Shown here: positions 11,167 to 12,443 of the stretch, one piece after another | Layout: each line of letters opens with the position of its first letter | Numbering within the stretch: the stretch's first letter is position 1 | From: a virus | IMG/VR virus record: IMGVR_UViG_3300010430_000003 | Coordinates: 126,001 to 190,000 of that record | DNA: 64,000 nt | Direction: 5' to 3' (one strand) | Translations under genes and position numbers: made by a program | Notes under the pieces: generated by a model | What the model saw: only the letters and a program-made list of their open reading frames with translations | Database searches by the model: none | Told to the model about the DNA's origin: nothing

Positions 11167-11660
11167 CAATCTCTATAGCCGGCATAAGCCCCAAGGAGTC
11201 TGTTTTGATTGTTTAGAGTGCCGCGCGGCGTAACTATTAACCTTGTGATATAAAACTAGAATAGTTCGTTAGCAAACTTGTAGACAATAAAGAGGAAAGA
11301 ACATGAAATATTGACATCTAAATATAACATGCTATGTAGAAGGGCTCCCACGCTATTGTGATAGCGGGAATGACTTAGGGAGGGATGAGCAGGGGTAACT
11401 CATCATATCTGTTGTGGCGAAACGGTAAACGCAAGGCTCTACTGCCAATAAACGGCTCGTTGAGGAATAAGAGGCACCCAATAGGGAACACAGGAATACT
11501 CAATAATTGCAGGTTCGAATCCTGTCAACAGATATTATAGGGAAGCGGTGAAGGAGGATATGGTTCCGAGGGCTACCAAAAGAATTAACTACTCTTTAGT
11601 TTGCGACAGCTAGCCGTCGTCAGTGGGGTTCGAACCACCACCGCCGCCATAGAGGGAAAG
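11167..11660 (+). other. Gene-free RNA-rich gap
   Basis: No credible protein gene over 494 nt. It contains GCCGCGCGGC (palindrome near 11220), a hairpin CGCTAT-TGTG-ATAGCG (11351-11366), a tRNA-like gene (11408-11533), and near 11622-11648 a T-loop-like TTCGAAC with TGGGG/CACCA arms followed by CCGCCGCC but no matching 5' half nearby. Composition is richer in G than the flanks. Probably a processed transcript of several structured RNAs. Confidence 0.6.
11408..11533 (+). tRNA. tRNA-like gene with about 50-nt extra sequence
   Basis: Perfect acceptor TCTGTTG/CAACAGA, D-stem GCG/CGC with AAACGGTAAA loop, and T-arm GCAGG TTCGAAT CCTGT. Between D-arm and T-arm lie 76 nt instead of the usual 25-45, and no standard 5-bp anticodon stem is found, so the anticodon is not assigned. 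Either an anticodon-loop insertion, an enlarged variable arm, or a specialised tRNA-like RNA. Confidence 0.6.
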
Positions 11661-11927
11661 ATGAAAAATTTTAATAAAGAATTATATGATGAACTTAGGT
11701 GGGAAGTGAAAGAACCACTTCAAGTTCAAAAAGAGCTTGATAATTATATTTTCTATGATTTTGATGATGAGCGGGTACCATCAGTAACAAAGGATTATAT
11801 CTATATTGGAGAATATTCTAAGGAAGAGATTATCACAACACTTGTTGTAGTTGTGATGGACAAACTTGCAGAACAAGTAGAAGAATTCAACAATCTAAAG
11901 GAACTATTCCGAGGTAAACATGACTAG
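11661..11927 (+). CDS. Acidic hypothetical protein
   Basis: 88 aa, strong AGAGGGAAAG before ATG 11661. Rich in Asp/Glu and Tyr (Y-I-F-Y-D-F-D-D-E near 30-38); helical C-terminus. First protein gene after the RNA-rich gap; overlaps the next by 8 nt. Confidence 0.7.
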   Translation: MKNFNKELYDELRWEVKEPLQVQKELDNYIFYDFDDERVPSVTKDYIYIGEYSKEEIITTLVVVVMDKLAEQVEEFNNLKELFRGKHD

Positions 11928-12129
11928 TAAAGATTATGAAAAGTTCGCTGGTATTCTCAAAGAGCGTAAGAACATCGCCGAGGTAAACGTTCAGCATGGC
12001 GGTGATTCGGTGATTTATGAATCCCATCTTGAAGTAATTGATGCCCTTGTCGAAGAATTCTGTGTTATCTTTGAAGAAGATAATCCAAACTTCGATGAAG
12101 ACCTTTTCCGCGATGCTTGCGGAACCTGA
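11920..12129 (+). CDS. Small acidic hypothetical protein
   Basis: 69 aa, acidic C-terminus (F-E-E-D-N-P-N-F-D-E-D). Coupled to the previous gene. Its stop lies 6 nt before the three-way-junction RNA. Confidence 0.65.
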   Translation: MTSKDYEKFAGILKERKNIAEVNVQHGGDSVIYESHLEVIDALVEEFCVIFEEDNPNFDEDLFRDACGT

Positions 12130-12135
12130 TTAATT

Positions 12136-12251
12136 TCTGTTCATCGTGGAGTGTGTTGATAAAGAGTTAAACTTACGCTAGCTTCTTTATCAATTACCTG
12201 TGTTGTTGTTCGCGGCTGCAACGTGAAACAGGACACTCCACGATGAACAGA
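12136..12251 (+). ncRNA. Predicted three-way-junction RNA element
   Basis: Three stems meet with almost no unpaired linkers. P1: 12136-12154 with 12233-12251, a perfect 19 bp. P2: TTGATAAAGA 12156-12165 with TCTTTATCAA 12184-12193. P3: CCTGT 12197-12201 with ACAGG 12228-12232, plus inner GTTG/CAAC. The 3' strand of P1 contains an ATG (12243) of the following frame. It could be a riboregulator, a processing signal or a free small RNA; no match to a known class is claimed. Confidence 0.7.
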
Positions 12252-12272
12252 TATATAAAAAAGGTATTAACC

Positions 12273-12443
12273 ATGGAAGCTTGGAAAAGAAATGCCCGAA
12301 AGTTCATTGATGAACTTGAAGAGTTTGAACAAAATCCCGTCACAGAAGATGACTGCGATGATTCTTATTGTGATGAGCAGGAACCAGACATCCTTATAGC
12401 TCGCGAAACGATTGATTTGGAACGTATATCCAAGGAGAAGTGA
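12273..12443 (+). CDS. Small acidic protein
   Basis: 56 aa from ATG 12273, with AAGG 7 nt upstream. A longer version from ATG 12243 (66 aa) would start inside the P1 stem and lacks a ribosome site. Acidic, with D-D-C-D-D-S-Y-C-D-E. Overlaps the next ATG. Confidence 0.55.
   Translation: MEAWKRNARKFIDELEEFEQNPVTEDDCDDSYCDEQEPDILIARETIDLERISKEK

Follow-up and report, generated by a model that had tools for sequence, protein, structure and literature searches.

Duplexes as long as about 29 bp are a form cut by double-strand ribonucleases of the RNase III kind, and phage T7 uses several processing sites. Structured phage RNAs of other kinds include the packaging RNA (pRNA) of the phi29 type, which is about 120 nt long and folds into a three-way junction closed by a long helix, and the stable RNAs rnaC (species 1) and rnaD (species 2), which belong to the tRNA cluster of phage T4. 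RNase III has target sites in phages lambda, T7 and T3, and the processed messages are stabilised by hairpins that remain on their 3' or 5' side (PMC5371410). Three roles are open to such a duplex: cleavage by RNase III, protection of a 3' end against exonucleases, and shielding of a 5' end. RNase III also unmasks ribosome sites, as at adhE and lambda cIII (PMC5371410).

We analysed a 64-kb window of DNA, comprising positions 126001-190000 of a virus record that is 210,326 bases long; coordinates below are those of the window unless stated otherwise. The record, from a large uncultured phage, encodes a T4-like terminase whose best annotated relatives are those of the Flavobacterium immuto phages (36% identity) and Microcystis phage Mel-JY01 (35%), as well as a UvrD-type helicase (about 31% identity to its nearest relatives) and a sigma factor of its own. 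Terminase relatives in viral contigs are mostly at about 43% identity, apart from one short fragment (L055) that is identical across its 33 residues; searches of genome contigs with neighbour and marker proteins gave no relatives. No close relative of the region described here was found in the collections searched.

A predicted three-way junction between two co-oriented genes

The element occupies positions 12136-12251 and is predicted to fold, on the + strand, into a three-way junction of helices P1, P2 and P3 (Table 1). The original prediction had proposed a perfect 19-bp P1, a 10-bp P2 and a 5-bp P3 with inner pairs, all adjacent, and the computed fold agrees with it. P1 consists of 19 Watson-Crick pairs with zero mismatches, and its mean pair probability is 0.993 in contexts of up to 551 nt. 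The ten pairs of the P2 stem (12155-12164 with 12185-12194) begin with a G.U pair and are followed by one A-U pair, a one-base bulge and four inner pairs. P3 starts with five pairs (12197-12201 with 12228-12232), which lead through an internal loop (12202-12203/12224-12227) to an inner stem of six pairs, two of them G.U (12204-12209/12218-12223). No base is left unpaired at the P1-P2 and P3-P1 boundaries, and the junction as a whole contains only two unpaired bases.

Table 1. Coordinates of the element and of its flanking features within the window
Feature	Positions	Strand	Basis
Upstream gene, 69-aa orphan protein	11920..12129	+	ORF list; SD-like GAGG
P1 5' arm (19 nt)	12136..12154	+	exact complement of 12233-12251
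P2 hairpin: 10 bp, bulge, 4 bp, loop 12170-12178	12155..12194	+	fold
Sole unpaired junction bases (P2-P3 boundary)	12195..12196	+	fold
P3 hairpin: 5 bp, internal loop, 6 bp (two G.U), 8-base loop	12197..12232	+	fold
Buried AGGA (12230-12233) and ATG 12243-12245, both paired	12230..12245	+	pair probabilities
P1 3' arm	12233..12251	+	complement of 5' arm
A+U-rich leader; its AAGG (12261-12264) is probably the Shine-Dalgarno sequence of ATG 12273	12252..12272	+	sequence
Downstream gene, orphan protein, 56 aa (66 aa from 12243)	12273..12443	+	ORF

The minimum free energy of the element is -57.7 kcal/mol, compared to a mean of -25.6 for shuffled sequences (z -10.8), and none of 200 shuffles reaches it. 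Among 120-nt windows on the + strand of the 210-kb record, the element ranks first by GC-corrected energy, and P1 is the longest exact inverted repeat of the record. Its 19-bp arm exceeds the longest arm in 40 of 40 first-order Markov genomes of equal length (maximum 17) and is also longer than the arms in most comparison phages. Most of the signal comes from P1, since without it the interior is unusual to a moderate degree only (z -2.9 on the + strand and -2.5 on the - strand). A good fold is also available to the - strand (-50.3, versus -56.9 on the + strand), and the advantage of the + fold comes through G.U pairs. Thermodynamics thus favours the + strand, without proving it.

Elsewhere in the record, an exact inverted repeat of 16 bp enclosing a 29-nt loop (record G000:C1:98986-99046; locus L029, 18986-19046), the second longest in the genome, sits inside a 270-aa coding ORF without a Pfam match. 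Long perfect arms are therefore not confined to the gap around 12136-12251. Inverted repeats of 13-19 bp are present in related phages, and some of these are likely by-products. An unrelated viral contig (L018, 29-168) carries two nested inverted repeats of 17 and 18 exact pairs.

The stem begins 6 nt after the upstream stop codon (TGA, 12127-12129). The element lies wholly inside the 143-nt gap between this stop and ATG 12273, fills most of it, and ends 21 nt 5' of this likely start; the flanking genes are co-oriented. The upstream protein has no Pfam and no convincing PHROG match, and no relatives of the downstream protein were found. As no promoter-like site was detected within the gap and no terminator-like site after the structure on either strand, the element is most likely part of a longer transcript. 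P1 followed by TATATAAAAAAGG on the + strand was considered as an intrinsic terminator and rejected, as it does not combine a hairpin with a U run.

A tRNA-like element with a score of 37.9 bits, not called by ARAGORN, is located upstream at 11408-11533 (+); its D-arm and T-arm are 69 nt apart, far more than is usual. At approximately 11627-11650 there is a second tRNA-like 3' end (GGGTTCGAACC...GCCGCCA), which is possibly comparable to the tRNA-like end of T4 rnaC. About 28 small ORFs (54-101 aa) on both strands of the record also stand out, as their products begin with MNIN-like residues (MNINxxIA...); they apparently form a family of small proteins present in many copies. Their positions in the window include 8258, 17339, 17712, 20012, 22104 and 22277 (+) and 25902, 26090 and 38252 (-), among others.

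Comparison with described RNAs and search for homologues

In scans with Rfam covariance models only tRNAs reach the gathering threshold, and no family fits the element, whose best sub-threshold match is to a plant microRNA model (19.5 of 119 bits). Inspection of the letters had revealed no known riboswitch core, and this impression holds, with no Rfam family at or meaningfully below its gathering threshold.

The phi29-type pRNA resembles the element in size and in being a three-way junction closed by a long helix. However, the phage studied here has a T4-like terminase, the element has no Rfam match, and complementarity between its two terminal loops amounts to 3 bp at most, too little for a pRNA ring. 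A phi29-like packaging RNA is therefore unlikely, given the terminase type and the short loop complementarity. The T4 stable RNAs share with the element a structured form of about 120-140 nt and proximity to tRNA-like elements, and the phage itself is large and T4-related. These RNAs differ from the element: the end of rnaC is like a tRNA T-arm, the fold of rnaD is weak (z -0.8), both lack a long closing stem, and the covariance model has no match in T4. With the RNase III processing or stabilising hairpins of T7, T3 and lambda, the element shares a long duplex between genes that are here putatively co-transcribed, and a position near a stop codon and just 5' of a ribosome site. Unlike them, it is a three-way junction that a perfect 19-bp stem closes, it has no repeated copies, and its cleavage is putative. 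Predicted P1 with P2 stacked on it gives a duplex of the length, about two helical turns or more, that characterises RNase III-type substrates.

No DNA homologues were found in phages and plasmids. An arm 15-mer occurs in 20 stretches of viral contigs with no partner arm longer than 9 nt nearby, and these matches were discarded as chance. The 16-mers of the P2 and P3 loops occur in 21 stretches of viral contigs, none of them structured, and the arm-gap-arm pattern does not occur in genome contigs. A covariance model built from the single sequence was run on 13 related viral contigs, the genomes of four related phages and T4, and returned only the element itself. The proteins encoded at 11920 and 13340, the helicase (6192) and the sigma factor (16355) likewise have no relatives in viral contigs. 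Absence from the related viral contigs is weak evidence because most are fragments and may not reach the region, and evolutionary evidence is absent rather than negative. We conclude that the element is a real structured RNA and an orphan.

In Flavobacterium phage immuto_13-6C (W01, 72053-72171), a 15-bp A+T-rich inverted repeat fills a gap between co-oriented genes, and its overall shape is also a three-way junction. It was rejected as a homologue, as it has no sequence similarity, is near chance length and contains a terminator-like hairpin.

Possible roles: processing, protection or a free RNA

The reading that we tentatively prefer, with confidence somewhat short of even, is that the element is an intercistronic double-stranded structure in a polycistronic + strand transcript, where it would be either cut by an RNase III-like enzyme or kept intact as a stabiliser. 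P1 and the stacked P2 would form a nearly continuous duplex of about 29 bp. If the gap is transcribed through, as we infer, a cut in this duplex would part the two messages, the upstream one being 11920-12129, and ATG 12273 would then follow a short open leader. Left uncut, the structure would be a barrier to exonucleases attacking the upstream message from its 3' end and would shield the 5' side of the downstream message, and either outcome may affect expression. Extreme stability in the longest exact inverted repeat of the genome, the location in the gap, a + fold better than the - fold, the ordinary accessibility of ATG 12273 (see below) and the phage precedents are all consistent with processing or protection. 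However, P2 and P3 exceed the needs of a simple processing hairpin, no other such structure is repeated in this genome, compared to several sites in T7, and the collections searched contain no homologue that would show selection on the pairing.

Alternatively, the transcript might release the element as a free-standing, stable RNA of about 116 nt that acts in trans as a decoy, sponge or antisense RNA. Such an RNA would be like the T4 stable RNAs in kind, and we consider this reading unlikely. The element is compact, fully closed by P1 and extremely stable, tRNA-like elements lie within 1 kb of it, and T4 provides a precedent in the presence of rnaC and rnaD in its tRNA cluster. Nevertheless, the element lacks a promoter-like or terminator-like site of its own and has no homologues in the collections searched, and the T4 RNAs fold differently, with nothing in T4 found by the covariance model. 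The small RNA suggested in the original prediction is thus not supported in a free-standing form, given that no promoter-like or terminator-like site is nearby. That the element is a new phage-specific RNA of about 116 nt, stable, trans-acting (for example on host ribonucleases or defence) and unrelated to described RNA families is distinctly unlikely.

Two candidate start codons and the remaining explanations

ATG 12243 and ATG 12273 share one frame and are 30 nt apart. The first lies inside P1 and the second outside the fold, as had been predicted. The AGGA upstream of ATG 12243, at a spacing of 9 nt, is paired in P3/P1, and unpaired probabilities are at most 0.053 for this AGGA and at most 0.001 for the ATG. 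The initiation region of 12243 costs 28.3 kcal/mol to open, compared to 10.1 kcal/mol for that of 12273. For 132 ATG-initiated ORFs of the genome, picked mechanically as longest ORFs so that some starts may be wrong, the median cost is 7.2, the 95th percentile 13.8 and the maximum 19.3 kcal/mol; the cost at 12243 exceeds that of every one of them. Pairing with the anti-Shine-Dalgarno sequence is weak and about equal for the two sites (-3.9 kcal/mol for the AAGG of 12273 and -4.0 for the AGGA of 12243). AUG 12273 is itself paired in some local folds, and its accessibility stays within the ordinary range. Since it lies outside the fold, has its own AAGG and shows an ordinary opening cost, ATG 12273 is probably the real start. 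The buried ATG 12243 is probably incidental; an in-frame ATG within a 19-nt arm is not improbable.

These measurements bear on a translational riboregulator, in which P1 and P3 would close the AGGA and ATG 12243 until a factor, cleavage or strand exchange opened them, and the 66-aa form would be made instead of the 56-aa form. Pairing of both signals, the highest opening cost among the starts tested and the RNase III unmasking of adhE and lambda cIII (PMC5371410) all speak for such a device. Yet a second in-frame start with its own Shine-Dalgarno sequence follows just outside the fold, and the search for an alternative fold that frees 12243 turned up no more than a weak pairing between the P1 3' arm and 12304-12311, in the downstream codons. 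The protein, moreover, is an orphan without relatives in which the 10 extra residues could be compared. We therefore regard this reading as quite improbable. Of the riboregulator originally proposed, the sequestered Shine-Dalgarno sequence and start codon stand, for 12243 only; regulation through them is not supported, with no stable alternative fold and with 12273 accessible behind its own AAGG. Nothing indicates a ligand or a switch.

A DNA-level origin of the repeat, as the terminal inverted repeats of a small mobile element or as a cruciform or origin-like site without an RNA role, is decidedly improbable. Its perfect arms could be the trace of a recent insertion or template-switch event, and the - strand folds well too, but the element is present in a single copy in the genome and in none of the collections scanned, has no evident target-site duplication, and contains an interior that pairs on its own as well. 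It is very improbable that the element is a functionless product of recent chance mutation, such as quasipalindrome correction. While the lack of a homologue or of detectable conservation would fit this explanation, as would the 13-19 bp inverted repeats of related phages, some of them likely by-products, the arm exceeds those of all 40 simulated genomes and of most comparison phages, and the interior is structured too. Recoding, whether by readthrough, by frameshift or by a bypass of the T4 gene 60 type, is extremely improbable: only 6 nt separate TGA 12127 from the stem, and the ACC codon before this stop recurs directly 5' of ATG 12273, but readthrough adds nine residues only, a frameshift meets TAA 12166-12168 ahead of the next gene, that gene has its own Shine-Dalgarno sequence and ATG, and chance alone would probably place a matching triplet somewhere in the region.

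Structured RNAs outside family libraries occur in large uncultured phages. By thermodynamics, the element at 12136-12251 is among the clearest of them; it is flanked by two genes, and there are two candidate start codons. Simple predictions follow from it, namely one processed transcript end and one used start codon. Should the element prove to be a stable RNA acting in trans, it would represent an additional class; as a knot for processing or protection, the reading that we tentatively prefer, it would extend a known theme to an unexplored phage group.
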